Assembly: GCA_018398765.1 (NCBI GenBank)
Contig: JAHBMJ010000492.1
Span: 9,458-46,739, forward strand
Source of the DNA: Chromera velia
Taxonomy: Eukaryota; Sar; Chromeraceae
Direction: 5' to 3'
DNA length: 37,282 bases
Position 1 is the stretch's first letter. Each line of letters starts with the position of its first letter. A model generated the notes under the pieces. That model did not search any database. It was not told the DNA's origin and worked only from the letters and a program-made list of their open reading frames with translations. The position numbers and the translations under genes were made by a program. Below, one piece after another: positions 3,224 to 35,280 of this stretch.

Positions 3224-4391
3224 CCTGACTCCGCTTCACTCAATTATGCGAAGAGGGGAGGAAGCACGAAGTCTAATGTAGCACGAGCCGACTGTGATTG
3301 ATGTGAGGGGGGTTTGATCGGACAGATGGTGGGCTTCTTCTATTTGTTTCTATCGATGGCATTCCTGATTCGATGTAGACGTTGCAGAATCAACTCCACA
3401 TTTTCTCAGCCTTTTCATCTATTTTTCATGGAGACTTCTTTTAAGTTCTTTAATACCATGGCCGGCATAATGCAGCGACCTTCTGCTTGGTCCAGAACTT
3501 GGCTGGCACTAGGGCTGGCAATGACACCTGGCAATGTTGAAATCTAGTTTAGCATCCACTGCCATCCAGCTCAACACATGTACCTGTATTGATTGCTCTT
3601 ATAATAGACTTATATAATAATAAGTTATATTCTCACTGCGGCACTACGGCAGTGTGTTTTTCTCAGTGCTACTCTGTCTTATCTTTATGCTACTTTATAC
3701 GGTAACTTATATCTGGTCTCATATGACCTATAGCACTAGGAGGCGCAGGAGGAGGGGCTGGGGGCGGTCAGGGGCATGACGGCATCTTGGATACAAATCT
3801 GGGCGGGGGGCTAGGTGGGGGGCAGGTAGGGGAGCGACTTTTTGAAGGGAAGAAGGGCGGTGTCTGTTGTACTTCACTAGGTGCTAGACTGGGCGCGCTG
3901 CCTCTCTTATCTCTCTTTTTCTTCTACATGTTTATTATTACCAGTTTCTTAACTTAACCTAGGCTAGAACCTCGGACTTAATACGTCATTGACTCTTGGA
4001 CTCGACGGACTGACTTAGAGACTAAGTGAAATCATGTCAGTGTTGACCTAGGTGTTGACTTCAATTTTTTTTGTCAGCGTGAACACGTTTAGAAACAAAA
4101 AAAAAAAAAAACTAAATGGGGTAAATGCCTAGGTAAATGCTCTTATTTTTTTTTTGTATTGGTCGCCTAGCTATGGCATAGGTCTATAGGACGCGATTAT
4201 GTTACGATTTCTGTCCAGAGCATTTAATTATATTTAGTATCTTGATCATACATTAATTGATTAGTAGTTTTGTTTTTGTATCTTACGATCGAATCTGAGA
4301 TAGATCAAATAACAATTAACAAATTGTTAGACAAATTGTCAACAATTTTCCGGATTCAAGGACGGAATTGGACGGATTGCCCCGCGCAGTG
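3224..4391. other. Intergenic DNA, becoming AT-rich
   Basis: This is the 3' flank of the first gene. It passes from GC-moderate DNA (to about 3560) through G-rich patches near 3740-3840 into AT-rich DNA with several CTAGG-type motifs. No coding frame or RNA gene could be supported. The AT-rich part resembles the transposon-derived DNA elsewhere in the window, but I found no clean ends. Confidence 0.5.
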
Positions 4392-4818
4392 TACCCTGCA
4401 AGTTTGAGTAATTTAGTTTAGTCTTATTTAGATGAGTAATTTAAAGTAATTTACAATAATTTAGCTTAGCAATTTAAAGTAATTTAAAGCAATTTAGAGT
4501 AATTTAGAGTAATTTAGAATAGTAAACTAAAGTAATTTAGAAAGCTAAATTACTAATTTTGGTCAACCTTTGGAGGTCAATTTCTTATGAACGATAAAGA
4601 GTTGGACGTTCAAACTAACAGTGCTTATAGATCCATATAAAAGCTATAAGCACTGTTAGTTTGAACGTCTAACTCTTTATGGTGCACAAAAAATCAACCT
4701 CCAAAGTTTTAATGACCAAAATTAGTAATTTAGCTTTCCAAATTACTTTAGTTTACTATTCTAAATTACTCTAAATTACTTTAAATTACTCATCTAAATT
4801 ACTCAAACTTGCAGGGTA
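4392..4818. mobile_element. Fold-back (long inverted repeat) MITE-like element
   Basis: The sequence is one large imperfect palindrome. It starts TACCCTGCAAGTTTGAG at 4392, ends with the reverse complement at 4818, and has its centre near 4640. The arms pair almost completely, including the inner segment around 4605-4635 against 4645-4675. The left arm is longer because of extra copies of an AGTAATTTA-type unit. The outer ends are flanked by TA on both sides, which fits a TA target duplication as made by Tc1/mariner-type transposases. No coding capacity is present, so it would be non-autonomous. Confidence 0.75.
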
Positions 4819-6009
4819 GCTAGGTGCCGCAGATAAAAAAAAGAAAAAAAAAAATTAGGTGTCCTTACCTTTTTTTTTTTCTTTTTTTTTTTTTAGGTCA
4901 AAAGTTAGGTTCACATTTTATATGGAAAAGTAAGTTTCAGAGTTGAAAGTGATTCTTTTCCTTTTGGAGGCACTTGAAATAAAAAAAAAAAAAAGAAAAA
5001 AAAATTCGGCCTTCCCAACTTTTTTTTTCTTTTTTTTTTTTCTATGTACAACGCCTATAGCAGGGTAGAGATAACGTTCAAAAAAAAAAAACTGCATGAT
5101 TCCTAGCATGATTCGATCTATGAGCAACTTTTTTGAATGCTTTTGTACATTTTTGTGAGTATTAAATTATTGCCTAGCTCTACTGGCATATATAGATGTA
5201 CCTCACATTCATGAAGTGCTTTTTTTATTACAAGCTAGGGACTGCATGACATGATCGAAGTAACAATGTAACATGAAACCGTCAGGGCAACAAAGTGGCC
5301 GATGTACCAGTCTATTAAGCGATTACATGGCTAGCTACATGGACAGGTGCAAAGTACGGGGCATGCACTCACCTAGGCACTCACAACCTGGACCCATCTT
5401 AGAGGCCCAGAGAACGTGTCACCACACATTAACTTGAAGGCGTTTTGTATTAAAATGCATGACGGCGAGTCGAAGGCTCAATTCCTCCTTCCATCTGCCT
5501 GAGGCAAGTCAAGAAGTCCGCCAGATTGAATCGATGAATGAAGAAATCATTGAAGCAATCACTGAATCACTTAACCAATCATGTGTCCAGCAGCATCAGT
5601 CAGTCAGGCAAGCAGCCAGCAAAGAGAGCAGGTGTCGGAGGGAAAAAACTCCAACCCAGAGCTTTCACCACATGCATGCCAGTGACTTGAGTCACTTGAT
5701 CGATCGACTCACACAGATGGATGCGAACTTTGCACGGTCACGAGATTGCACTTAAAGATGCCACAAAACTTATTTCTGTGACAGTCCCCTCGATTAAATA
5801 AATGCATTTTGAGAGCATCCCCCGGTCTCCTTCTCCAGTGGCGATAAGAGTCGGTTTCCTCTCCGTGCGTGCATTTGTGTCGGCGCGCATGTGTGCATTC
5901 GTGTGTATGTGTGTGCGTGCGTGTGTGTGTGTATGTGTGTGTGTATGTGTGTGTGTGTGTATGTGTGTGTGTGTGTCTCTCTCTGTGTGTGTGTGTGTGT
6001 GTCTCTCTC

Positions 6010-14879: not shown

Positions 14880-16146
14880 CATGCAGCATGTCAGGGTGGA
14901 CTGATCGAATGCAAGTATACAGACCCGTGCTCATCTGTCACTGGCAATGACTTAAACATGGGAACTAGCGTAGTTACCAAGCTCTGAAATTATCGAGTTC
15001 GAATTACTTCCTAATTAACCATGTATCTACACACATCAACTTTTGAAAACACTTCAATTAGCTATAAATATTGTTTATAATAACTTTATCATCATTATAC
15101 GCCATCGTCGTTTGCCTATATAGCTAGACTAGTGGTCTAGCCTACGACTTGGATTTGCCCTGGAGACCTTTTTTTTTTTCCCTATAAAAATTACCCCTAG
15201 ATAGGATAGGATGGGATTTTATGTTCCGGGAATCCCCGCGGTCCACTGCCAGGTATCGGCTAAGATTCGGCTTGCACTGATAAAAACTAAAAATTTATAG
15301 GATGTCGATGAAACTACTAGTTGACGTTTTAATAATAATCGTAAAAGTGAACCTGTTTTTCAACCTGCTAGTCAACTTGATTCAATTCATAATTTTAAAG
15401 TTAACTTTGAACCTTGAACCTTTTTATATATAATTAAGGCTTTCATCTAGGGTTAAATGCCTAGAATATGCATGGATAAAATTCTAATAGTCTACTAATA
15501 TACTATACGGTTAGGAGTAACTACCAGGGGTTTTGAGGGTAGCCTTATTTACTCCAAATTGGGTATAACCGACGATTCGTAACTATAAGGGGGTCCACCG
15601 CACCTGCCATTGGCACTACCAAGATGAAAGGTTAAATCAATGATACTTCAACTATACTTCGTCAACTTAGACTCAACTAATAATTTAACAAGTTAAATTA
15701 CTTAAATTAAGTGTATACGAGATCTTAAAACCTAGCTTAAAACGGTTGTTCATCCATTTAAAACGTGTTTTAAACTTGAATTGTTTTTTATTTATCTTTT
15801 AACAGTTTTTAACCTATGATTATACTAAAAATACCCTACCACCGCTACCATAGTAACCTAGATGGTAACCCAACCTATAAAAGTACTACTACCGTAACCA
15901 CGATTCTGGTTACTGTGCGGCCGTCAGGCCGCGCGAGTTACCATCCAAAAATGGTTACTCCTATCCATATAGTGTAAATTCTAATAAGTTGGCAGTTGTG
16001 CATGGTTAACTTAAAAACCGGGCCGGTGAGGCTAAGCGGCGTGAGCCACCTATGATTCAGGCTATGAAAGCAAGCATGTTAACATAGATGTTAATCATGC
16101 AGGGTACAGCTTTCTTTCAATCACGCGTTCTAGCACACTCGTTCGA
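14880..16146. other. AT-rich spacer between convergent genes
   Basis: This region lies between the stop of the transglutaminase-like gene and the stop of the minus-strand 901-aa gene. It is strongly AT-rich, dense in TAA, CCTA and TTAAAC motifs, and has no supported open frame. Composition resembles the hAT-like elements elsewhere in the window, and a GGGCCGGTGA motif occurs at about 16020, but I could not pair terminal repeats or find a target duplication. It is probably decayed transposon DNA. Confidence 0.5.
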
Positions 16147-18852
16147 TCAGTTGTCTTTTGGCAACTGAGAACTGGGATCTGTACTTCTGCCCTTGAGATT
16201 GCTGTTGGCTGAGACCAGAGTGCGGCCTTTTCCATTGCTGGCATTTCGGGGTGATACCGGGTGGGGGTCCGTACTTCTCGCTTTGAGGTTGCTGCTCACT
16301 GACAGGACATTCCGCCCTTTTCCGTTTGAAGCCGTGGGACCAGTAACTGGAACGGGGAGGGGAGAGAGCGGAGGGGGGGAAGGTGCAGGGGAGGCTGCAC
16401 TGCGCTGCGTGTGTGTTGGTGCCGCTGACTGATTTCCCCCGCCCCAGATTTGCAGTCCTCTCTGCGATGAAGGTCCCGGCGCCGCTGCTGCCGCACCCCC
16501 GACTGGATTTGAATTCCCCCCCTGTTGTTGCTGTTGCAGCTGCTGTTGCTGTAGGAGAAGCACTGGGTCTTGGGGTTGCGGCAGAAGAATGAAAAAGGCC
16601 CACATCACGAGATTCGTCAGAGCATCGAAGGTCTCTGCAAGGGGGGCGAGGTCTCGTGCCTGCACCTGTCTGAAAGCACGTTTACAGACGTGAAAAAAGT
16701 GGACAGACTCAGCCACATGGGGCTCAAAGAACCTCAACCTCTCTGCAAATTCCACCACAGCCCCCACAAAACGGGAATACCGATTTCCAGCCTGGATCGT
16801 TCTCAACGCATGGAGAAACAATTTGGTGGCTGCCATCAAACGCGTCTGAGAAGACTCAAAACGAGCAGCCACTGAAAGGCCCAAACTCGTTGGGGCGGGC
16901 CCCGCAGCAGCCGCGGTTGTTGAGGTCCCTCCTGGGGCCCCGGCATTCCCCGCTGCAGATGGCGGAGGTTGTGCAACAGCCCCTGGAGGCAACGACGGTG
17001 CCGGGGTCGGTGGGCCCACATTGGCATTGACTGGGGATGCGACACCTCCTGCTGGGTTTGCAGAAGGGGCCGGGGCTGGAGAGGGTGCTGATGAAGCAGC
17101 GCCTGGGTTGGCGGGTGTGCTTACAACGAGGGGAGATTGGAGTCTGGGTTGCTTGTGCGGGGGTGAAATGAGGCTGAGAACTATCGGGGGTATGGGGGCA
17201 TTGGTTGGAAGTGCTGCGGCACTCTCAGCAAAAAAGGACTCTCGCTTGTCCCGTTCTCTGTCTTTGTCCTTTCCTTTCGCTGCTGGTCCCAAAGAACCGT
17301 TTGTATCCCTCTTCGGTTGCTTCTGTTTGGGTTTGGGGGGGGCGACAGGTTCAGTCATCGGATGCAGCGACACGGATCCCTCTCCCTCTTTCTGTTTTTC
17401 CTTTTCTTTGTCTTTTTCTCTTTTGGAATCTTTGGAGGCCGGACGCTTCTTCGGCTTCTTCTGAACCGAATCCTCTCCGACAGGCAACTCCTTCCCTCGA
17501 CTTCCACTGGCCCCACCGCCCTCTGAAGGAGTGGGAGCTGCTGCTGCCGCTGTACCTCCCCCCGTCTTCCCCCCCTTTTTCCGTGGCGAAGAAGAAGAAA
17601 GAGCTGTCGGAACAGCCGGACTTTGTGATGTGCGCACACTGATGCTCCCACCACCGGGCGCTCCCGAGGGCGACTTCTCGCTCCCCGGAAAGCCATTCGA
17701 TGAGAGGGCCGATGCCCTCACGGACATGGAACCCCCTCCTCCCTGAAGTGAGGCGCTTACCGAACCTATCGTCGCACCCCGAGCCCCCCCACGGTTCCCT
17801 GCAGAGACACTTGGGCCGTGGAAGGACCCCAGGATGCCATATTCAGACGTGGTCATAGAGGAAGGGCCCATCATGGCCCCCGCACCCGCACCCCCCGCTG
17901 CAGACGCTGCAGCAGCAGCTGCTGCCGCTGCGGCTGCGGCTGCGGCTGCTGGACCTGTTTTCTCCTTAGTAGAGGCTCTGACCCATTCTTTCTTTACATG
18001 TTGGCGGAATTCATCCGCCACTCTCGTGTTCCCACACGCCCCCTGAACCTGCCTGACCTTCTCCAACGCACCTTGTTCGATGTCTAAACCGTCAAGGGGG
18101 AAGAAACAGGGGAACAAAGCAACAAGAGCTTCTAGCTGGTGCAATGTCAGATGGGCACTTCTTTTGACAAAAATTTCAAACTTATGAAAGAGTATAAAAC
18201 TCAGACGGAAATACCGCCCCCCCAGATCCTCCCCGAAAAGGGGGACAAAAGTCGTCACGACTTCCCGAATGTCCACCTTGTCATCTGCCGACTCAAGCCA
18301 CCTGACCACTCTTTTCACATTCTCTACCTGCCTCTGCACGGACTCTTGCCTTTTGTTGGCCTGCTTTGCCAGCATAACCAGGCCTTTTTGCTTAATGGTC
18401 AAAGGCTTAGGTCTTCTCAATAATTGGTGAAGAACCTCAGAGTCCAAGGCGTAGTATCTCTCCAGGATTCGCTTCCTCTCGAAGGTACGAATCTGGAGGG
18501 TTGAGAACCTCAAAAAAGAACTGGGATGAGCCAGTGCAGACTCGAGCATCTCAAACACATGATACTGATGGGCGGTGTCCAATTTGACCAGGGACGAGAG
18601 ACGTTCTCTCCCCTCCTCATTCGGGGGGGTCGGGAAGTGACTCATCCTCTCTCCCAGAGCCTCGGCAATGGAAAAACCCTCCAGCCAAAGGTCATAGACA
18701 TGCTCGTTGTACCAAAAGGGGTCCTGCGCTACAACGAAAACGTCCCTGAGCGAGTGGAGCTGCTCGTTGGACTGTCCTGGAGAAAGAAGACGCGCACGGA
18801 GGGCGGAGGGCGCGTCCCTGACGGCTTTAAGAATTGAAGCCAGAACGTACAT
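16147..18852 (-). CDS. Hypothetical 901-aa protein with helical ends and a disordered linker
   Basis: A single uninterrupted frame runs from ATG (18850-18852) to TGA (16147-16149), unlike its intron-rich neighbours. Residues about 1-295 are ordinary globular sequence, rich in hydrophobic and charged helical patterns. A poly-Ala tract follows (about 300-316), then about 330 residues of low complexity: Gly/Ser, Lys/Glu and Pro/Ala-rich stretches with an SKREKDKEKEKQKEGE-type charged run. A second globular, helix-like segment follows before a Gln-rich tract (LLLQQQQLQQQQQGG). The C-terminus ends in two tandem copies of a unit that begins ASNGKGR and ends RSTDP. I do not recognise the family. The helical-linker-helical layout recalls vesicle-coat adaptors, but no diagnostic lipid-binding motif is visible. 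A first coding exon upstream cannot be excluded. Confidence 0.75.
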   Translation of the reverse strand: MYVLASILKAVRDAPSALRARLLSPGQSNEQLHSLRDVFVVAQDPFWYNEHVYDLWLEGFSIAEALGERMSHFPTPPNEEGRERLSSLVKLDTAHQYHVFEMLESALAHPSSFLRFSTLQIRTFERKRILERYYALDSEVLHQLLRRPKPLTIKQKGLVMLAKQANKRQESVQRQVENVKRVVRWLESADDKVDIREVVTTFVPLFGEDLGGRYFRLSFILFHKFEIFVKRSAHLTLHQLEALVALFPCFFPLDGLDIEQGALEKVRQVQGACGNTRVADEFRQHVKKEWVRASTKEKTGPAAAAAAAAAAAAAAASAAGGAGAGAMMGPSSMTTSEYGILGSFHGPSVSAGNRGGARGATIGSVSASLQGGGGSMSVRASALSSNGFPGSEKSPSGAPGGGSISVRTSQSPAVPTALSSSSPRKKGGKTGGGTAAAAAPTPSEGGGASGSRGKELPVGEDSVQKKPKKRPASKDSKREKDKEKEKQKEGEGSVSLHPMTEPVAPPKPKQKQPKRDTNGSLGPAAKGKDKDRERDKRESFFAESAAALPTNAPIPPIVLSLISPPHKQPRLQSPLVVSTPANPGAASSAPSPAPAPSANPAGGVASPVNANVGPPTPAPSLPPGAVAQPPPSAAGNAGAPGGTSTTAAAAGPAPTSLGLSVAARFESSQTRLMAATKLFLHALRTIQAGNRYSRFVGAVVEFAERLRFFEPHVAESVHFFHVCKRAFRQVQARDLAPLAETFDALTNLVMWAFFILLPQPQDPVLLLQQQQLQQQQQGGNSNPVGGAAAAAPGPSSQRGLQIWGGGNQSAAPTHTQRSAASPAPSPPPLSPLPVPVTGPTASNGKGRNVLSVSSNLKARSTDPHPVSPRNASNGKGRTLVSANSNLKGRSTDPSSQLPKDN

Positions 18853-19315
18853 TAAATGATTTCAGCAAAAATACCTCGGGCAACAGGTCAAGAAAGACAG
18901 ATCCACACGTGAGAGTACCAGGCTAAGGATCGAAAGTGACTGGAAGGACAGAGACTTGCTCGAAGGAGACGGCGGCAAAATTCGTAGGCAGACTGACGGC
19001 TACCAAGAACGAAAGAAGTGTCTGCACTGGGAGACGTAGACAAGTTAGTCTCCATTCGCTTGAGCCCGCCGTATACCAATGCAGAACTATATAGGCGTCT
19101 TAAAGCTTCTTGAATTCGAAGTGGAAATCGCACTTGAAAAAGATGTCCAATTAACCCGACGTACTCACTGCACATGCGCACGCGGTGTGATGCACCGGGG
19201 ACATACCGGGGACGGGCGTCCGCGCGCGGTCATGTCCGCGGTCATGCATGCATGAAATGGAGACGCCATGCACGAGACGGGAACCCATCGGGAGCCCCTC
19301 AGTGCATTATGATTC
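18853..19315. other. 5' flank of the 901-aa gene up to the retroelement
   Basis: Contains a minus-strand open frame (18888-19181) with plausible protein texture but no compatible splice path into the gene at 16147-18852. The stretch stops at the left end of the retrotransposon at 19316; the last flank bases before it are GATTC. Confidence 0.5.
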
Positions 19316-19483
19316 AGCTTCCACACTTCGCATGCCCTACCGTTTCTTGACTCATCTGTTGCTAGTTTTTTTGTGCTCATACTCTGGTTTTGCTAAGCAT
19401 GATCACGCTCGAGCTTTTCCGCCTTTGCCTAGATTTCTAGGCTCTAGTGTCAGGCGGCTGCAAGCCTCGAGGATCTGCCCCCA
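19316..19483 (-). repeat. Retroelement split repeat B2 (outer 3' end)
   Basis: 168 bp, about 95 percent identical to B1 at 19997-20164 with no gaps (offset exactly 681). It begins AGCTTCCACACTTCG at the left edge of the element. A unique 116-bp segment (19484-19599) separates it from A2. Confidence 0.92.
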
Positions 19484-19599
19484 TGCCCCTGAGGTAGGCC
19501 AACAAATCGGACTATAACCCTCCGCTGGCGGACCCGTTGAATATCTGGCTACCCGAAAACAGACAGACCGGGACTCCAAAGGTAGGTGGGCGGGCGTCG

Positions 19600-19996
19600 G
19601 TCCAGTCCCCGGAAACGAAAGCCCCCGCGTATATCGCTTCCACTAGCCTGCACATTTCCGGTTTTTCAGAGAAAATAAAAAAAGGTTTTTCATCGTGCAC
19701 TTTCTTGCCGTCTCGTATGACCGTCTCCTGCTTTACTGTCTGCTCTTTCTCCTCTCAGACGCCTTCCTTACTCGCAAATGAACGTTAAACCGTCTCCCGT
19801 CTCGGGTTTTTTCATTCGTGCCCGACGCTTCTCGTTTCAGCCTTCGTACATGACGCAAGGCCTCGCCAAACGTTCCGCGTCTCCCAGGCACTGCCCCGTG
19901 TGTGGCACGTGCGCGCGTGCGCCATTGGTTCCAGCTGAACCTGCGTTCTCGCTCCGATGAACGATTCTGTCTGGGCTTTACGCAAACTCCCATTTC
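19600..19996 (-). repeat. Retroelement split repeat A2 (internal)
   Basis: 397 bp matching A1 at 26550-27998 once the hAT-like insertion is removed. Several differences between copies are of the CG versus TG or CA type. It abuts B1 directly at 19996/19997. Confidence 0.92.
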
Positions 19997-20164
19997 AGCT
20001 TCCACACTTCGCATGCTCTACCGTTTCTTGACTCATCTGTTGCTAGTTTTTTTGTGTTCATACTCTGGTTTTGCTAGACATGATCACGCTCGAGCTTTTC
20101 CGCCTTTGCCTAGATTTCTAGGCTCTAGTGTCAGGTGGCCACAAGCCTCGAGGATCTACCCCCA
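19997..20164 (-). repeat. Retroelement split repeat B1 (internal)
   Basis: Internal copy of B2. Downstream of it on the plus strand (20165-20412) is a short segment leading into the recombinase gene. Confidence 0.92.
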
Positions 20165-20412
20165 AACCCCCACACACCTACAAACTGCCGACCGGCGGCC
20201 GCCCGCCTCCGCCTGATTGCTCCCCCCCAGAGAACTTCCGTGCGTGACTGCTTGGCAGGCGGCCACCATTGCCTCAGCTTAGAGTCAGCTAAGCATCAAC
20301 GCTGCCCTTTGGCTATAATAGCTACTCGTATGTCATATACTCCTTATTCACCTTCAAAAAGTTGCTGTTCCTCTTACGTACTTCCACCTTACACCCTACA
20401 TAGGCAAAGTTG

Positions 20413-21654
20413 TTACATGCCTGCAATATGCGCTGCAATCTCTTGCACGTCTCTGGCTGTATACGCCATCCATGCGTTGACGCTGTTATGACCTAGAATG
20501 TTAACCACTACGTCAACCGGCAGCCCTGCCCTCCTCGCCGTCGTGTGGCCACTCCTCCTAAGCGAGTGTGTCGTAAAGTTTGTACACTCTCGTTCGGGCA
20601 GGCACCTCTAAATCGCCTTTCGCAGCGCCCTCTGCCATGCGTCCCGCGTGAGTGCCGTACCCTTCCACCTCTTGCCGTACCCATCCGTTGCTTGGAAGAG
20701 GGCCCCATCTCGTAGGGCCTTCTCCAGAAAGTCCAAGATGTGTCTTCCTAGCGCTGTCCCATCCGTCGCCACCAATGGTATTGGACACATCGCCCCCCTG
20801 CCGAAGGGGTCACCCTTTGACCTGTGAATATAGCATGCGATGAACGCTGGGTCACCTCTCTCCTTGAGTATGAAGTCCTCCCTCTCTCTCACCAGGATCT
20901 CACCAATCCTCTTCACAAGAAAAAACGCTAACACCGCTATTGTAGCGTTTTGTACCCTATCCAATGTCTCTTGCTCTCTCCAGAACTTTATCAACTGGAG
21001 CACTTCCTCCTTTGACAGTCTCTCCTTCTCTTTAACTTTGTTGTCTGCCAATTTCTTCAGGTCTAACCAAAAGTACCTCAAACTCTCGTGCTCCAGGGGC
21101 GGGGCGCCATGCCCCTGCTTGTGATACTACCATCTCACTGCCCCTCTTAGCGTTTCAATCTCCTCCCCTCTGAGTCCCTTCAGATGTGCAAACCCCATCT
21201 TGACATCCAGCGGACTAGCCATCGACAGCAGGTGGGGGTTCGACCTCTCCATCTTCCTCAGTGCTGCTTCATATCTCTTTTTCGTACTTGGTTCAAGCGC
21301 GGCGGCTTCAATCGATATTGCCTCTTCCATGAGCTGTCTCTTTGACGTAACCTTCCTTTCTTTTTCCTCCTTGCTCACTGCCCCTATGGCGGTGGCGAGC
21401 TGTGAATGGGATACAAACCCCGCTTCCTTTGCCTTCTTTGACAACGTCTGGACACGACCCGCCCTTGTCATCGCCACCGGCTGTGCAATCCCTGCATCCA
21501 ACACACGGCACATACAGTCATCTTGATGTGCAATTCCTGCTTACCCATTGCAGATACGTCTTCTCAGTAGAGTCTCATGTATCTAGCGTCCGTATAGTAC
21601 CACCACTCCCTATCTGCTAGGACTCTCGCTACTAATACAATGTTCCTCAGCCAT
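20413..21654 (-). CDS. Tyrosine recombinase of the retroelement, interrupted by in-frame TAR codons
   Basis: The recombinase inserts the circular DNA copy into the genome. One frame runs from an ATG at 21654 (good context, followed by GCT GAG GAA) to TAA at 20413-20415. In-frame TAG or TAA codons lie at 21610, 21583, 21541, 21127 and 20608 (lowest coordinate of each). If read through, the frame stays open to a TGA at 20296-20298. The catalytic set is complete: Arg in VKRIGEILV, HSLRRSGH, GHNSVNAW, then the candidate nucleophile Tyr in MAYTARD. Two of the TAR codons fall within or beside the catalytic domain, yet no frameshift is seen across it. Under the standard code this is a pseudogene; see the finding on TAR codons for the alternative. 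Confidence 0.85.
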
Positions 21655-21833
21655 TGCATTGCCTTCCTAGTCACTGTAACGCCTGACACACGGTTTTAAA
21701 CTCAGTCTAAAACTTATATGCGATACACCATATCTACCTATATAGTTTCTTTGAGTTACTACACTCTGTCAACGACACGGCGCTACTCCATTCGCCTATC
21801 AATCAACAAAGCCTCCCACTTTTCTATAATTGG

Positions 21834-23924
21834 TCACCCTTTCGGAAGACTGAACACCTATCGACCATGGCTGTGTTGCACCTCCGTCTGTAGCGGGGGT
21901 TGGGGAGTGAAAATCTCCCTCCCTTTGCCGAATCTGTCCATCACCCTAAATTCCACCCCACCTTTCCTCCAATAATCCCCTACTGCCCTTGGCACTACCA
22001 AAATATGCGGTCGACATACCGCTGCCAGCTCTGCAGCTTTTACAACAGATTTATACTTGTCCCCCGCTGGCGCATACACTACCACGTCAGATCTCTCCCC
22101 TGCCTGCCCGACCGTTGTCGCCCTCTTCAAGGCTCCGCTTGCCTGCCTATTCAGATGGGCTAACACCCCGTCCTTCAGCACTTCCTGCCGATGGGCCTCT
22201 CCCCCCATCCTGGACAACTGGTCTGCGACACTATTCTTTCTCCCTGGAATATGCACTGTAACTACCTCGACACCTGCCTTTCTCTCTACTGCTTACACCT
22301 CTTCTACCACTTCACCCAATGCTGCGGCCGTGCTGTGACGATTGTTGATAATCCTCACTGTGACTAAATTGTCTGACCGGATCATAACTCTTCCTGAGTG
22401 GCGGCCTGCGCCCTGCTCAATAAATTTCTTCAGACACAACGCCGCTGTCTTTGCCTCTCGCTAGTTCGAGGAACATACCGCTTGTGCCCCTGACCATAAC
22501 CACCATACTGGGCTCTCCCCCCAAAACCCCCCTGCTCCCGTACCTGCCGCATCCCCTGTGATCACTGCAACATCCCTTAGGATATCTTCCCATGATGCTA
22601 GCCAATCTGCATCCCACACGTCTAACTCTCCTGTTGGTGTCACATAAAGTTTCCTAATCGGTCTTTTATTCAATGTCTCTTCCCACGACTGCAAAGAGCG
22701 TAGCATTTCCTTTGACAGCGCTAGCCCCCCCTTCTTCCATTTCCTCTGCGCCATCCTCGAATTTGGCCGCGTACTTGGAGCAAGGACTCTCCAAAATGGG
22801 GCCAACTTCTGCCTACCCTGGTATACCACGAGCCTCAGGTGACTGAGCAAGCCTACTAACTGCAACTCCTGCGTAATTGTTGCCTCACCTGCCTCTGCTG
22901 CCTTTCTCAGCCCCTCTATTCTGTTCAATGCCTTAACTACCTTCTTTTATGGGATATACAGCCCCAGACTCTTCGTGTTTATGCTAATTCCTGTGAACTC
23001 TAACGACTGAGTCGGATCCACCGTTTTTGATTCCTTCATCTTCCATCCTATATCACTGAGTATCTGCAACGCAAGTTTCAACGCCTCCCATACTTCACCC
23101 TCCGTTGCCGCTGTAATTAAGAAGTTGTCAATATAATTCAGCGATTTAATCCTCGCTGTGTGCAACCCTTTCCTTCGAAACACTTCTTGAATGTGCTCCG
23201 TCGTTCCTTGAAATACAAATGGCGCGACTTTCAGTCCAAAAGGCATCACTCTATACCTATAAAACGCTTTTGTACTTGGGTTAAAGAACCCTAACAAATC
23301 GACATGGTCTGGGTGAATATGGATGTGAAAGTACCCGTCCTTCAAATCAAGTTTTGCCATATACTCGCCTGGCTTCATAAGCCACATCGCATGCCGAAGC
23401 GTTGGCAGTCCCATGACTGTGTCTTTCGTTGCCTCGTTCACTCCTGACACTGTCATATCAATGATTATGCGCGGTTCTCCCGTTTCTGGTTTTGGAACAG
23501 CACCCAGAGGTAACACAATGTATGGTTCTTTTTTAACTCTTTTAATGAACCCCTCTGTTTCTAATCTGTCAAACTCCCTTCCTACTTTCTCTTCCCATTC
23601 GACAAGGGACGAATAATTTTCCATCTGAAATCTCGGCGGCCAATACTTCAGTGGCAGTTTTATACCTTCTTCTAACTGGCACACCAGCCTTTCATCTACC
23701 CCAAACTCTCTCATTTTCTGAAAGTTCACTTACAAACCTTCTGTCTAACGATCTGGTGTCTCCCACCCCGCGGGCAGCTCCGCTCCCATGTCTGGTAACG
23801 TCCACTCCTCCAGTGGTAACGGCCATCTCGACTTCAGCGGTGGAAGAGGTTTCTTGCCTGCACACATCCCATCAAATGTAACTAATTAGCATCCATTATT
23901 AATATTAATTTCTTGCTTTTCCAT
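21834..23924 (-). CDS. Reverse transcriptase-RNase H of the retroelement, interrupted by in-frame TAR codons
   Basis: It copies the element RNA into DNA. The frame runs from ATG at 23924 to TGA at 21834-21836, with TAA or TAG at 23886, 23745, 23730, 22947, 22461, 22293 and 21858. Reverse-transcriptase motifs are in order: LPLGAVPKPETGEPR, AKLDLKDGYFHI (catalytic Asp), VMPFGLKVAPFVFQ, and YIDN where YxDD is expected. RNase H follows: VITGDAAGTGAG (Asp), SSN-stop-REAKTAA (Glu), IRSDNL (Asp) and HIPGRKNSVADQLSR (last Asp). All four RNase H acidic residues are present. TAG at 22461 occupies a position often filled by Trp or another residue in relatives. A different-frame open stretch at 23882-24166 is basic and unassigned; 24167-24722 holds nothing else recognisable. 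Confidence 0.88.
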
Positions 23925-24722
23925 ACTCTCCCTACCATCTCACTAGAACGCACTAGTGAATTTATCCCTCTTTTGTACGATAATAATTTCACTAACTTAC
24001 TTCTCACTCCTATAATTTTACTTAACAATTTTCCATAGCCACAGCCTTTTATTCCTGAACACTGATTAACCAACGATGGTCTCTGCGTAGTCTCACTTGC
24101 AACTTTCCGCAGTCTTTTCACCGAATCGGATATCAAACTTTGATAGCTACGCGTTCTATATTGCATCCGCCCCCTTCTTTCTCAGCATAGACTCCATTAT
24201 GCTATGAAACCATGCAGCCCTGTCTCGACCCTATTCATGCCTCTGCATTGCGTGCTTTGCAGGTGCATCTCCCACGCCTCTGCCCTGTTTGTGTCTGCAT
24301 GCAGACTCTCTCTCCACCACTGTCACTCCATATATGCACGCCCCTTTTGCAACTGTATCTCCGTTGGTAACTAGTGCCCCTCAGCACACTGCTTCTAAAC
24401 CTCCCCTTTCCTCTGTCTGCTCAGCTCTGCACCATAATCAGGCCCCCCTTGGCCTAGGGACCCTCGTTGGCAGGCGATCACGACAGGGAATAGTAAGGCT
24501 TCTCCCTCTCCACACTGCCTGCACTAACTCCACCGACACACAGAAAACGAGCAAAATCGAGTCCCCTGCCAATACGGGTTAGAATTTCTTTCTGCATCAA
24601 CAGGGGCAAGTGCACGCCCCTACCCCTCTCAACGCCTTTGCTCCGTTACCCCCGCCGGAGGGACTGCTCAGCTCACTCCCCTGCAACAACCTTTCTAACT
24701 CCGCTGCCCTCAGTCTCCCTTC

Positions 24723-26297
24723 TTACTTGGTGGCCCTATATAGTTCATCAATCATTTTCCATCCTGCACAGTCTGGCAGCCCCTGGTTTGGGCACTCCGA
24801 CAAGGAGTGCTTCATCGAGGCTACGTTCTGGGGGGTCGCTCCGTGCACTCGAACCTCATACCTGTTTTTTGCTGCACAAATTCTGCATACACCCGAGGCG
24901 GCGGTTGCCCCTCCCCCGGCGTTTCCATGCCGCTGCTGCTGTTGTTGCTGCTGCGTGTGCTTTGCCTTTACAAAGGTCCTCTGCTGCTCAGCAGTCACGG
25001 GGTGCCCTATCCTCTGGATCTTCTCTTCCAGAGTCAAGACTCTGCACTCAGTCAGATGAGCTCTCTCCCTCAGTTGCGACAACCTTCTGAAGGTCAGCGC
25101 TAGCAGAGGGAAAATGAGATCAGTCGAGTGGGGAGGGATCGGGGCCCCATCTTTCTTCGCATCAAGCACGTAGCCCACCGCCTCTAGCGAGGCCTGTTGG
25201 AGGTCGGAGAAATCAGTGCAGCCATCAAAGAACCGGATCAGCACTGCTGCTGCTTCTGCAACTTTTCTGGCTCTCTCTGCCTCTCTCCTTTCTGTCCTGT
25301 CTGTGATGCTATCCCTCTCTCTGGTTAGCTGAGCAGCCCACTCCTTCAAAACTTTCTTGACCAACTCTGACGGCCACCTCCTCCTGAGCTTGTACTAGCT
25401 TGTACTCACCATCAGGGTTGGAGCCCCTAGCCAACGCCCCTGCCGTGGCGTTGTCTTTCGGGATTAGGCACGTCCCGTCTCTCCCCACCTTTGCAGGAGG
25501 CAGAAAGCAATTCACATCCCACTCTGGGACTTGCGCCACCGCTACCCCTTCCATCCCCTTCTTCTTGTACCGCTGACCTGCCAGAATCTGCGCGGCTGCA
25601 AGTGCCACAGCGATGGCCTCTTCTTGTACGTCGACCATATCGGCCTCGTTGTCTCTTTCATCGCCCGAGTCGATGGTGATGGCTCTAACACGTTTGGGGG
25701 CCCTTACCGCTGCTGCGCCCCCCCCCGTGGCATCTCCTTCCGAGTCCTCGAGCCTCTCTGCTCGGAGTGTCTCGATCTTTGCCTCCAATTCCGCTCGCTC
25801 CCTCTTCTTACTCTTACAACGGAGGCGCTCTCTTTCGTTCTTTTCCTTCCTCCTCTCTTCCTCCTTCTTGTCACCCCACCTCTCTGCCATCTTCTTCCTC
25901 GTCTCTTCATCGAGGAGCTCCATAGCTGCAGACAGATAAGGGGGGCATTCATAATTCGATTTACACCGCACCACTGGCGTCTTGCTACTGCTTACTGACA
26001 TACCCTTTGTGGCCTCTCTGGCAACCGCTGTAAGCTGACAACAGCCTTTCGCGTCTGCCTCACCTCGCTAAGGTCTTTCTTCCTCCCTTCTTTCCCTCTA
26101 CTGTTCCGCCTCACTCACTCACCATGAGCGACGGCCAACAGCAGGGCAGCTACATCCTTGACCTTCTGTTTGTCCTCGGCCAACATGCCCGCCGCCCCCT
26201 TAGTCTCGGCCCTTTTGACCACTGGCTGAGCGACTTCACCATCGCCGGCCACACCTGTGGCGCCTGCCTGCCCGTTGTTCTCCTTCGGAGCTTCCAT
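24723..26297 (-). CDS. Gag-like protein of the retroelement, frameshifted, with a probable intron
   Basis: Three open segments appear to form one protein. The first starts at ATG 26297 and runs into a GTGAGT donor; splicing out 26028-26122 (95 bp) joins it in frame to the second (to 25309). The second is rich in Lys/Arg/Glu with a coiled-coil pattern (about 25760-25900). A perfect 10-bp tandem duplication (AGCTTGTACT, 25387-25406) breaks the frame there. The third segment (25364-24723) continues with helical sequence, a Gln run and a Cys/His cluster, CRICAAKNRYEV then H and C, that may be a zinc knuckle. Position upstream of RT and this make-up fit Gag. The last TAA (24723-24725) is followed by about 40 further open codons to a TGA. 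Confidence 0.68.
25387..25406. repeat. 10-bp tandem duplication causing the gag frameshift
   Basis: AGCTTGTACT occurs twice in a row. Counting one copy only, the upstream and downstream gag frames become continuous. Confidence 0.85.
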
Positions 26298-26626
26298 GAC
26301 TTCTCGTTACATCTTCGTGTCGCGCTTCCTCAGAAAAAGACGTTGCGTTCAACTTAAAGGCATCACACACTATGAACACACTGAGTTCAGGCAGCTCACT
26401 GCTTGAGTTACCTCTACCATCGCGCAAAACGCGCCGACGGTTATGTGTCTCGCTCTCAGCCCCCGCGCACTGACCTTTGTCCGGATCCGTCACGCGCGCA
26501 CGTGGCTCGCTTATGCAAACTTGGCTGTGGGACCCTGCAAACCGCGTTAGTCCAGTCCCCGAAAACGAAAGCCCCCGCGTATATCGCTTCCACTAGCCTG
26601 CACATTTCCGGTTTTTCAGAGAAAAT

Positions 26627-27671
26627 CTAGGGTATGACACTTAAAAAAAAAAAAATATAATTTAATTATAAACCCTAGGGGTATGTGTCACTCTGATTAG
26701 CTATAACTCTAAAAAGTAGTTTTTTAAGGTTTTTAGGATGAACTGACCTTATTTCTACGATAACACAACTTTTCAAATTAAATCTCATGACCTTTTATAT
26801 ATAGGAAAGTCAATTCGCCCTCTGAGGTTCGTAAACGTTCATGACGTCGGTTTGCAAACCTAATCCCCCAACCTGACCAAACCAGTCTAAACCTGGTTCC
26901 AAATAGCTTTTGCATGAACACAGAGAAGATGCAAAGCAAACATAACCTGGCATTTTACCAGGAAACATCAGACAAACCGATCATTCAATGGATGTAGGAT
27001 AAACTTAAGAACACAAAAGCTGCCTTCATTCTTTCACACTTCAACAGACTCCTCCAGAGGTACAATTTCCTTTTCAAACGCCTGGTTATGCCCGGTTAAC
27101 TTACTCCAATTCTTTATTTTCAATTTATAAGCCGCCCTAGTAAGCCGCCATTAATGTTTAGTACAGTGTGAATCAAAAAAAATACTGCGCTGATTGGCAC
27201 ATCGTCTAAGCGTGGAGTATGAGAACGTCGCATCAGCATTAGTAAGCATTAGCATAAACATAGTGTAGCTCACCTCCCTCTGTTCATCAGCATCTTCATA
27301 CGACACAAGAGGAGCATGAAACTTCGCATTTCCATCAATGTAGCCGATCTGAGAAAGACCGATGCTCTTGCTTTTCTTGGTAACAGGGTGAACGTCTTCA
27401 GGACACGTTTGAAAAGGTTTGGAAGGTTTAAGTCTGGTGTAACCATGGTTTCTAAACCAATTCTAAACCTGACGTACCGAATGGGTTTTTAACTCATCTA
27501 AACCTACCCTAACCTACCCTAACCTTAGCCACTCAACCTTATTTTAGCGTTTTTAAAGCTTTTTTAGTAAATTAAGCTCCAAAAATATCTTTTAAAACAT
27601 CAAAAATTTAAGTTTTTATTGAAAAACCTAACTTTAAACCTAGGGTACCCTCACAGAGTGTCAGACCCTAG
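26627..27671. mobile_element. Non-autonomous hAT-like DNA transposon inserted in repeat A1
   Basis: 1,045 bp flanked by a perfect 8-bp target duplication, GAGAAAAT (26619-26626 and 27672-27679). Because A2 is the uninterrupted sequence, the empty site is visible in the same window. Terminal inverted repeats start CTAGGGTATGACACT on the left and CTAGGGTCTGACACT on the right (14 of 15 identical). The 8-bp duplication is characteristic of hAT transposases. The interior is AT-rich, has telomere-like CCTAACC runs near 27500, and has no transposase frame. Confidence 0.88.
27274..27432 (-). other. Exon-like open segment carried inside the hAT-like element
   Basis: On the minus strand this less AT-rich segment is open and reads like protein (it includes SIGLSQIGYIDGNAKF and SYEDADEQRE). 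It ends precisely at a consensus donor, GTGAGC. It could be a captured host exon or a remnant of a transposase exon. No acceptor or continuation was found, so it is not called a gene. Confidence 0.4.
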
Positions 27672-28197
27672 GAGAAAATAAAAAAGGGTTTTTCGTCGTG
27701 CACTTTCTTGCCGTCTCGTATGACCGTCTCCTGCTTTACTGTCTGCTCTTTCTCCTCTCAGACGCCTTCCTTACTCGCAAATGAACGTTAAGCCGTCTCC
27801 CGTCTCGGGTTTTTTCATTCGTGCCCGACGCTTCTCGTTTCAGCCTTCGTACATGACGCAAGGCCTCGCCAAACGTTCCGCGTCTCCCAGGCACTGCCCC
27901 GCGTGCGGTACGTGCGCGCGTGCGCCGTTGGTTCCAGCTGAACCTGCGTTCTCGCTCCGATGAACGATTCTGTCTGGGCTTTGCGCGAACTCCCATTTCG
28001 TTCGAAGATGTTATGCATGTACAAGGACTCCGCCTGGCTCTAGCTGTAGTGGTGTCAAGAAGTCGTGGTGATAGTGCGGCAGTGCTTACAGCACCAGGCT
28101 CTATAAATGGATTTGAAGGGATGTTGCAAAGTATTGAGAGTTCGTAGGGAGAACAGGCACTATTTCTGTGACTTACCAGTGTGCTGCGCTATTTGGC

Positions 28198-32602: not shown

Positions 32603-33804
32603 TAGGGCTTAGAAAAGGTGCACCTCAGAAAAGGTGCAAACCAAGAAGCTGCACCAGATACACCTGTTTTGCACCAGATGCACCTGATACACCTGTTTTG
32701 CACCTGATTGAATGGAATTGGGTGAAAAGTGTCAGCGTCATGGCCATTTAACGCACCATGGCCCCGCCCCCACGGCTCCCCGCGGCCCATGCATGCAAGC
32801 GTGTTACTGGGCCGTGGTATGCACGGAAGAAGGCCTATTAGCCGAATTTAAAATAAAAATCGGCTAAATACAGGGCCGGTGATAATCCGGGTCATTGAAT
32901 GTGAAACCAAAAGACAAAGCCAAAGCCCCCCTTCCATCCGCCCGCATCAGACCCGAGGAATTTCTGGGAAGAAAGACGACATACTGACGTTGGTTTTCAA
33001 GTGGGACTTCGAGTGGGAGAAAGTCTATGAGAGGTCTGCTTTTTCTTCTTCTTCTCCTTTGTCTTCCTTTTCTTCCTGTTCTTCCTCCTCTATTGTCGGT
33101 TTGGGGTGGGGTGGGGGGGTGAGTGAAGACGATAGCCAGGTTATGATGGGGTTGGGCTCTTACCCTTTGAGATCAGACCCTCACTTGCATGTACATGCCC
33201 TTGCTCAGAGAAGAAATGCAAATCAAGATTAAAAATTGCTTTTGTTTCATTCTTTCTTCTTTTCTTTCTCATGAAACTATACCATTTGTCGTTGTTTTCT
33301 TTATGAGTTTGCTTCAAAGGGGTATGCATGCAGTAATATTGCAGTTTGAAGGTTTTATGGACCATAGGGACAGAACTGGACTACAGTACAGCACGCAAAC
33401 AGCACCAAACATATTCAAATACTGTAAATCCATGCAGGAAAAACATTGGGCAGGTCAAAAACGTTGCTTAAACTGGCCCATAAAGAGATGAAGTCATGAG
33501 ACAATTGGAGACATGTTCTTTAATTGGAGTAAAAAACTTTTTTTTACCTGTCGTCGCCTTTTTGCTCACATTTTAGGCTGTTTTATATAATAAAAGTTTG
33601 TGTAGCTAATTTATATCATAAAAAGCTCTTAGGCCTTGAATAAGGCACCTTTTGGCCGCTAGAAACACTAGAAATCAGCCCTAGAAATCTAGTTTTTATA
33701 AGGTAAAGGGTGCATCTTATTTTGCACCTGTTTTACACCTGATTTAAAGTGCAAACTTATTTTTGCACCAGCACCAGCACCTTATGCACCTTTTCTCAGC
33801 CTTA
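32603..33804. mobile_element. Second non-autonomous hAT-like DNA transposon
   Basis: 1,202 bp with a perfect 8-bp target duplication, CTACCGAG (32595-32602 and 33805-33812). Terminal inverted repeats start TAGGGCTTAGAAAAGG (left) and TAAGGCTGAGAAAAGG (right, reverse complement), about 18 of 20 identical. The TARNG start matches the hAT terminal consensus. Subterminal regions carry repeated CACCTG/GCACC motifs (32610-32705 and 33735-33795), typical of transposase-binding clusters. A CAGGGCCGGTGA motif at about 32871 looks like another hAT-type end and may mark a nested insertion. No transposase frame is present. Confidence 0.87.
32951..33033 (+). other. Exon-like segment inside the second hAT-like element
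   Basis: Bounded by an ATCAG acceptor-like site and a GTCTGC donor-like site. It encodes TRGISGKKDDILTLVFKWDF and about eight further residues with no stop. It is GC-richer than the element ends. It may be a captured gene fragment. Confidence 0.35.
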
Positions 33805-33812
33805 CTACCGAG

Positions 33813-35280
33813 TTATACAGAATCATACTAAATAATCTATCGTCTGACTTGAATTATATAATGTGTTGTAACTTAGGTTTTGATATTATCCTGCAAATTT
33901 AAAGCATTTGATTGATTAATTTAACCTTAGTAATTCAAAGTAATTTAGCTTAGTAATTTAAAACAATTTGGAGTATTTTAAAGTAGTAGTAATTTAAATC
34001 TAGAAAAGTAACTTGAAACTTTATGAAGGAAGTTCGGGTAATTAACTTTGTGTAAACCTTCAATTTTAGCCAATAGTTTTACGGCATATTTTAATTATAA
34101 AAAAATTAATATTTAAAATTATAGAGTTTAGGGGGTTTAGACTCTTTAGCTATATGGAGATTAAACTTGCTACACAGCTTTGGTTTCATTAGTTTTAAGC
34201 TTCCTATAGCAATAATAGTATTTTGGATAGCATTAATAGTTTTTAGGCTAGTTTTTAGGTGTGATCTGTAAAGTTTTAAAGTGAAATAAAGTTTAAAGTC
34301 CGGTTTGAGTCTGTGAACTCTAAAACATAACTTTTGAAACGCATTTTAAAAATCTTTTAACATTATTTAACGTACATACATGCATTGAAAAATGTTTTAA
34401 AATGTTAAACAATCCAAAATAACACATCAATGTGTTCAAACCTTTTATTATTAAAGTTTTTAAACCAGAGAAGTTTTAAAGTCTAAAGTTTATGGTCAGG
34501 CCTCATTATAAAAATATTTTTACAGATCACACCTAAACTAGTTTTTAGGGTCGATCAGACATGTTATACTCTAACCACTTAGGGCAATGTAATGTAACAT
34601 ATATAGGGTAAAAGTTGAGATACAATTTTATCCTTACTGTGACTCTACTAATTGGGTACTATCGGGTACTACAGTTTTATCAAGATGCCCCTGGGACACC
34701 GCAGCTCTCCCTCTCTCCCCCCACTCAGTTCTGGATCTCCAACCTCAGGTTCCTCTACATGGAAATGAAAAATTGAAGAACAGTTCATGAAAGTTTCTTT
34801 CAGACACTCATACATTGGGCGCATTGAACGTTTGAAGTCACCGCTTTCAGGTACAAACAGAGAAAGAAACTGAAAGAAACCATCTTGACTTTGTTAGGGA
34901 ACCGAACATGTGATGAATCCTCGTTATTTTGCTTTGCTTTCTTTCTGCTCATCTTTATTCATACATGAACCTTTCTACCCTTCCGTCTTTGCTGTCTCTT
35001 CTCTTTTCTTCTCTTCTCTTCTTATCTTTTTTCTTGTTTTCTCTTCTCTTCTTTTCTCTTCTTTTCTCTTCTTTTCTTTCTTTCTTTCTTTCTTTCTTCC
35101 TTCCTTCCATCCATCCATCCCTCCTTTTTTCCTTTCTTCCTTCCTTCCTCCGCCTTTCCATGCTTCATTGCTTCGATCCTTCTTTTCTGTCTCTTCTCCT
35201 TTTGTAGGTAAAGAACTACAAAAATCATCTCAAAGACAGCTAATGGCATCAAGCAATACAGAAGACTGAGAAAGTGCCAT
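33813..35280. other. AT-rich spacer, then a pyrimidine-rich tract
   Basis: 33813-34660 is AT-rich with AGTAATTTA-type units like those in the fold-back element at 4392-4818. 34930-35210 is a CTTT/CTTCC pyrimidine tract on the plus strand ending in a good acceptor (TTTTGTAG at 35208). After that acceptor a short frame runs to TGA at 35267-35269. This suggests the last exon of a plus-strand gene, but no upstream coding exon was found. Confidence 0.45.
34256..34535. repeat. Inverted repeat pair, possible small MITE
   Basis: A perfect 17-bp inverted repeat (TAGGTGTGATCTGTAAA at 34256-34272, its complement at 34519-34535) encloses about 245 bp of AT-rich DNA. Both flanks contain CTAGTTTTT, so the target duplication cannot be placed exactly. 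Confidence 0.55.

Follow-up and report, generated by a model that had tools for sequence, protein, structure and literature searches.

Introduction

Open reading frames that are repeatedly interrupted by TAA or TAG (TAR), and never by TGA, raise the question of whether these codons act as stops at all. The question is posed by a retroelement in a stretch of 37,282 nucleotides of the Chromera velia genome (hereafter the window; assembly GCA_018398765.1, contig JAHBMJ010000492.1), for which a first-pass annotation, made from the window's letters alone, weighed three explanations: UAR is a sense codon and UGA the only stop, the element is expressed by readthrough, or the frames decayed by a CpA-to-TpA process, the last of which was judged to be disfavoured. 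By comparison with sister copies in the same genome, we find a non-functional DIRS-order copy with PAT-like repeats, the stops of which arose, with near certainty, from C-to-T decay after insertion and involve no change of the genetic code.

Results

Anatomy of the element

The element is of the DIRS order, encoding a reverse transcriptase (RT) and a tyrosine recombinase in place of an integrase (Table 1). In Pfam searches, a piece of the RT frame matched RVT_1 (PF00078, E=5.4e-19) and the C-terminal piece of the recombinase (20412-20607), which has the same orientation as the RT, matched Phage_integrase (PF00589, E=1.3e-6). Two pieces between stops gave no Pfam match to RNase H, a label taken over from the first-pass annotation, and the gag-like region gave none above the cut-off, its label coming from position alone; likewise the element pieces scanned gave no match to a methyltransferase domain. 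The window copy and the copy L028 both have split direct repeats, arranged A1-ORFs-B1-A2-B2, and inverted pairs of 40 nt or longer, as the inverted terminal repeats and internal complementary regions of DIRS1-like elements would give, numbered zero between window positions 18500 and 30000. By its repeat pattern, one that Ngaro and VIPER share, the element would fall in the PAT-like subgroup. For the DNA transposon-like insertion that splits A1, 40 places of its family were scored, counting the one in the window.

Table 1. Features of the retroelement and of the in-frame stops discussed in the text (window coordinates)
Feature	Position	Strand	Evidence or sister comparison
YR (DIRS-order) retrotransposon, split direct repeats A1-ORFs-B1-A2-B2	19313..27999	-	Repeats, RVT_1, Phage_integrase, 26 other matching places
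Left terminal repeat A1	27672..27999	-	Remainder at 26626-26544 beyond the insertion; direct repeats and L028 comparison
DNA transposon-like insertion within A1, about 1.04 kb	26627..27671	-	ATTTTCTC on both flanks
Insertion-flanking ATTTTCTC copies	27679-27672 and 26626-26619	-	Motif positions
Gag-like ORF region, two overlapping frames, TAA at end	24723..26001	-	Position only
RT/RNase H frame in the sister-based reading, ending in TAG (21785-21783) and containing decay stops	21783..23747	-	RVT_1 and sisters
TAA in RT, codon 326	22947..22949	-	One sister TGA; others Arg, Gln, Pro, Leu or Glu
TAG in RT, codon 488	22461..22463	-	Trp in 19/24 copies, Cys in 1; other copies TAG 2, TGA 1
TAA in RT, codon 544	22293..22295	-	Gln in 19/25 copies, His in one; four others also TAA
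TGA taken by the first-pass annotation as RT end	21834..21836	-	Arg codon in 5/5 aligned sisters
Tyrosine recombinase ORF	20413..21471	-	Likely start ATG at codon 62 (frame of the first-pass annotation); true stop TAA at codon 414
TAG in recombinase, codon 176	21127..21129	-	Trp in 14/16 copies, TGA in one
TAG in recombinase, codon 349	20608..20610	-	Gln in 4/6 copies, Arg in 1
Repeat B1	19994..20170	-	Direct repeats and L028 comparison
Repeat A2	19594..20002	-	Direct repeats and L028 comparison
Repeat B2	19313..19489	-	94% to B1

Sister copies and the meaning of each stop

A DNA search of the 178 Mb, 4040-contig assembly revealed 27 places matching the RT frame, the window's own included. Loci L002-L005, L014 and L020 share 82-94% identity with the window copy and are referred to with it as the window's group, L003 and L020 being two parts of a single element copy on one contig; L006-L013 and L017 constitute a nine-copy family with 67-69% identity to the window copy and about 94-97% among themselves; the loci outside these two sets are more distant from the window copy. 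A protein search with a stop-free RT piece gave at least 147 matches, some with internal TAR and some with internal TGA.

Read literally, the RT frame (23924-21834, minus strand) holds seven in-frame TAR codons and the recombinase frame (21654-20296, minus strand) nine, with zero internal TGA in either translation, just as first described. Alignment to the sisters sorted these 16 codons into seven that are common non-coding stops or the true stop of the recombinase, one upstream stop and eight decay stops. Within the recombinase frame, all four aligned copies, one of them the window's, have stops at codons 15, 24 and 38, ahead of the likely start; codon 414 (20415-20413) is the true stop, being TAA in three and TAG in one of the four aligned copies; codons 422 and 427 (stops in 4/4) and codon 437 (3/3) lie downstream of it. 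Because stops common to the copies are thus found both upstream of the start and downstream of codon 414, the span from the ATG at 21654 to the TGA at 20296, first described as the recombinase frame, is not a gene. The gag TAA, which had been regarded as a stop that the frame passes over, is an ordinary terminator, corresponding to TGA, TAA and TGA in L028, L029 and L030, respectively (a fourth sister that was tried did not align). The same ORFs terminate with TAA, TAG or TGA depending on the copy.

In the RT frame, codon 13 is an upstream stop in three of four copies (the window's included; two of three sisters) and Gln in the other, and codons 60, 65, 326, 488, 544 and 689 are decay stops at which most sisters have sense codons. 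Recombinase codons 176 and 349 are of the same kind and bring the decay sites of the window to eight; Trp predominates among the sisters at four of them and Gln at three, and RT codon 326 is mixed. CAR, TGG and further sense codons thus occupy these positions in sisters, and TGA occupies four of the eight in other copies (RT codons 60, 326 and 488 and recombinase codon 176), an outcome that the first-pass annotation had itself named as the mark of simple decay and that tells against both a sense reading of UAR and readthrough. The TGA at 21836-21834, taken as the end of the RT frame, is a premature stop, since the aligned sisters L002, L003 (read in L029), L004, L005 and L014 all have Arg codons there and the frame continues, by 14-17 more codons in four sisters and by 6 codons to a TAG in L014. 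It is the kind of stop that a CGA codon would yield at CpG.

Pooled over the 27 loci (RT codons 60-697 and recombinase codons 66-413), 129 in-frame stops were tallied at 80 sites, a count that includes descent-shared stops once per locus and a few RT codons twice through the contig overlap of L020 and L003, and that leaves out five stops that lie in insertions absent from the window frame as well as the terminal RT TGA (codon 697), because the alignments stop at 696. Fifty-three of the 80 sites are private to one locus. The stops comprise 70 TAG, 36 TAA and 23 TGA, giving a TAR to TGA ratio of 106 to 23. Tracing each stop to the most frequent sister codon that differs from it by one base (n=129) assigned 43 to Trp->TAG, 12 to Trp->TGA, 26 to Gln->TAA, 19 to Gln->TAG (45 Gln->TAR in all), 7 to Arg->TGA and 22 to other changes, so that 107 of the 129 fit a single C:G>T:A step from a sister Trp, Gln or Arg codon.

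Mutation spectrum and predicted stop mix

Private changes in the nine-copy family are dominated by C:G>T:A (485/579 at sites with conserved neighbours; 661/779 unfiltered). Counted over copy-sites, C>T change reached 4.3% at CpG (125/2930) and 3.2% at CpA (184/5778), compared with 1.4% at CpC (79/5527), 1.5% at CpT (97/6632) and about 0.2% for T>C; CpA followed by G was struck at a lower rate (25/1303) than CpA with any other base after it (104/2894). The same excess was observed in the window's group, where private changes, polarised by two outgroup copies, were C:G>T:A in 84/97 cases for the window copy and in 59/76, 161/200 and 28/37 cases for the others, with context counts of 99/1088 at CpG, 134/2048 at CpA, 42/2129 at CpC, 57/2313 at CpT and 40/6192 for T>C.

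In the decay account, cytosines on both strands turned to thymine after insertion, fastest at CpG and CpA. Such changes convert CAA and CAG to TAA and TAG, CGA to TGA, and TGG to TAG more often than to TGA, the middle G of the codon pairing with the C of a CpA; a TGA could in turn become TAA through the same CpA-type change. Because of these codon routes, TAR comes to outnumber TGA without any change of code. The decay explanation that the first-pass annotation had set aside is essentially right, as the sisters and the spectrum show, while its focus on CpA holds in part: CpA is indeed hot, but CpG is as hot or hotter and also yields TGA.

Applied to the codons of a close sister, the context rates predict a stop mix of.60 TAG,.12 TAA and.28 TGA. 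The seven loci of the window's group carry 24 TAG, 8 TAA and 8 TGA against predicted shares of.58,.14 and.28, a good fit (P of at most 8 TGA = 0.19). The nine-copy family carries 21 TAG, 1 TAA and 7 TGA (TAA 1/29, P=0.039), a comparison that is partly circular since the context rates derive from that family. Across 11 distant loci there are 21 TAG, 24 TAA and 5 TGA, with more TAA than the predicted share of.23 (P of at least 24 = 0.00007) and too few TGA (predicted share.23; P of at most 5 = 0.016), and in the pooled set TGA makes up 20/119 against 25% predicted (P=0.021). The TAA surplus of the old copies is likely explained by the TGA-to-TAA change, and their loss of CpG is likely a further reason for the poorer fit outside the window's group.

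For the window itself, the absence of TGA is unremarkable: at an expected TGA share of 0.28, the probability of no TGA among the five core stops is 0.19, and that of at most one TGA among nine, when the eight decay TAR are taken together with the terminal TGA, is 0.23. Treating all 16 TAR as independent gives P=0.005, which is an unfair test because 7 of the 16 are common or natural stops and one more is a stop in two of three sisters. Since a CpG/CpA C-to-T spectrum generates far more TAR than TGA, a short frame with TAR only is expected by chance. What is observed directly is the state of the sister codons, the mutation spectrum and the agreement between predicted and observed stop mix within the window's group.

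The poorer fit beyond the window's group runs against the decay account, as do the 22/129 stops that do not correspond to a single C:G>T:A step from Trp, Gln or Arg.

Cause of the cytosine loss

Slow deamination of repeat cytosine, perhaps methylated, has about an even chance of being the underlying chemistry. The share of C>T was similar in the nine copies of the family (chi2 11.5, 8 df, p 0.18), both strands were struck in each copy (151 C>T and 203 G>A in total, on a G-rich strand) and one-strand runs were found in no copy (lowest p 0.37). This evenness, together with changes on both strands without runs, favours steady change over bursts or the editing of cDNA.

A RIP-like, repeat-directed mutation system operating in a non-fungal host, rather than slow deamination, appears improbable. 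RIP is confined to repeats, with duplication as its trigger in the sexual cycle, and acts in bursts that are uneven between copies; neither an uneven C>T share nor strand runs were seen across the nine copies. The preference for CpA alongside CpG is what such a system would share with the spectrum observed here, in which, however, CpG is struck harder than CpA. A control family of DNA transposons (21 rows) was equivocal, with 234 C>T among 384 changes (49 T>C) when up to three variants per site were admitted, a count that shared ancestry may inflate, as against 54 C>T of 153 versus 44 T>C among singletons alone, a count from which fast sites struck repeatedly drop out.

Base composition bears indirectly on the same point, and on confinement to repeats. 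The TpA/ApT ratio reaches 1.33 at 15-16 kb, 1.25 at 4-5 kb and 1.11 at 33-35 kb, compared with 0.90 in the ORF part of the element, 0.60 at 35-37 kb and 0.43-0.53 in three host stretches, one of which, a gene with a FIBP domain, is single copy apart from short matches. Of the AT-rich stretches, those at 15-16 kb and 33-35 kb are partly repetitive, as a RIP-like reading would have it; 15050-16000 has partial matches elsewhere, many of about 60 bases, but all matches of 33100-35000 fall within its first 0.7 kb. Because they are only partly matched elsewhere, these stretches lend weaker support to that reading, and there are hints, short of proof, of a faster loss of cytosine in repeats than in genes.

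Searches for cytosine methyltransferases returned four matches to PF00145, of which L087 had DNMT2 as its best PDB match and L088 and L089 matched the general cytosine methylase model only; no RID-type methyltransferase was identified in this search, which does not bridge introns, a result that may weigh against a RIP-like system. That the sole classable methyltransferase locus is DNMT2-like speaks against a methylation step.

Editing by a cytosine deaminase while the cDNA is being made, which a C>T excess in a retroelement might suggest, is highly improbable and was rejected, given that changes on both strands are mixed within each of the nine copies without runs and that C>T is also in excess in the DNA transposon family under one of the two counts.

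Readthrough and altered code

Expression by stop-codon readthrough would accommodate several TAR per frame in a window copy that has no frameshift. The distribution of the stops is of another kind: 53/80 sites have a stop in a single locus only, many different conserved Trp and Gln codons are affected instead of one constant recoding position, and the stops that end gag and recombinase are common terminators of mixed identity. No conserved internal stop that could serve as a recoding site was seen in the sister alignments. We consider readthrough very unlikely and rejected it on the private, scattered stops and the mixed common terminators.

The proposal that the element's own lineage, or the one it came from, reads UAR as an amino acid such as Gln, with UGA as the sole stop, draws on the literal window frames without internal TGA and on a pooled TGA share somewhat below that predicted by the spectrum (20/119 versus 25%, P=0.021). 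The stops themselves point the other way, as 43 TAG stand at sister-Trp sites and 45 TAR at sister-Gln sites, so that no single amino acid fits both; TAR and TGA occupy the same sites in different copies; and in both the window's group and the nine-copy family the recombinase stop is TAA or TAG. Among 50 tRNAs detected by ARAGORN in 40 loci (46/52 tRNA hits; 63/4117 candidates scored), none has a suppressor anticodon TTA, CTA or TCA. The host genes, said to be free of in-frame TAR, bear this out for HSP70, in which none of 38 matches holds TAR and one holds TGA, and less uniformly for light-harvesting proteins, in which internal TAG occurs in 4 and internal TGA in 7 of 58 matches, although these may be introns or pseudogenes. 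Comparison with PDB yielded no clear named match for the light-harvesting proteins, and a search for psaA/psaB was negative. With Trp as well as Gln replaced, TAR serving as terminators and sense codons in the sisters, UAR as sense was rejected and has next to no probability.

Discussion

According to passages in two papers, the order A1-ORFs-B1-A2-B2 is the split direct repeat pattern of PAT-like elements (PMC6681497, PMC5890265), one of these passages also assigning it to Ngaro and VIPER (PMC6681497). The element resembles PAT, TOC and Kangaroo, the PAT-like DIRS elements, in having an RT, a tyrosine recombinase and split direct repeats; its recombinase is oriented as the RT, and a methyltransferase domain was not matched in the pieces scanned. 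The PAT-like placement here follows the repeat pattern rather than an RT tree.

Decay of methylated transposons through deamination is a general process. The decay observed here is like it in that CpG is hottest, both strands are affected and the C>T share is similar in each copy, and unlike it in that CpA is nearly as hot as CpG. In fungi, C:G>T:A change in repeats with a preference for CpA is the context of RIP, as described in part of PMC12543289. The C. velia element has in common with it C:G>T:A change in repeats with CpA preferred, and differs in that CpG is struck at least as hard, that the changes appear to have accumulated steadily and that the host, which has light-harvesting genes, is not a fungus. 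Among the matches listed, titles and abstract openings yielded no report of cytosine erosion of chromerid repeats; the element may already stand in a published table of C. velia transposable elements, supplements being outside the literature search.

It is possible, though on balance we doubt it, that this protist has a repeat-directed, RIP-like or non-CG methylation-linked C-to-T erosion with a preference for CpG and CpA, under which genes would remain GC-balanced while old repeats turn into AT-rich islands. The comparison of copies removes a false lead for stop-codon reassignment and exposes a trap, in that a CpG/CpA C-to-T spectrum loads dead coding repeats with TAR, mostly from Trp and Gln codons. 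The erosion of repeats by C-to-T change is strong here and, if it is confined to repeats, would represent a RIP-like process outside fungi.

Features of the window

The single long frame of the host gene with a FIBP domain contains no in-frame stops. A DNA transposon-like insertion lies inside repeat A1 of the element; its ends read CTAGGGT... and are flanked by an 8-base target duplication, and the genome holds 40 scored places for it, including the window's own. Three AT-rich stretches combine a high TpA/ApT dinucleotide ratio with 30-37% GC.

Coordinates and properties of features in the window
Feature	Position	Strand	Remarks
Host gene, FIBP domain	16147-18852	-	single 901-codon frame
DNA transposon-like insertion	26627-27671
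AT-rich stretch	4001-5000
AT-rich stretch	15000-16000		partial matches to dozens of genome places
AT-rich stretch	33000-35000		dozens of matching places, confined to first 0.7 kb

Loci elsewhere in the genome

Exons of cytosine methyltransferase were observed at three loci (L087, L088 and L089); the L087 exon resembles DNMT2, and the L088 exon, judged by eye from its motifs, looks DNMT2-like. L015/L016, whose sequences were taken from L041 and L042, belong to a related group of YR elements in which TGA closes the recombinase frame and TAG the RT frame; thus, terminator identity varies within the element family.
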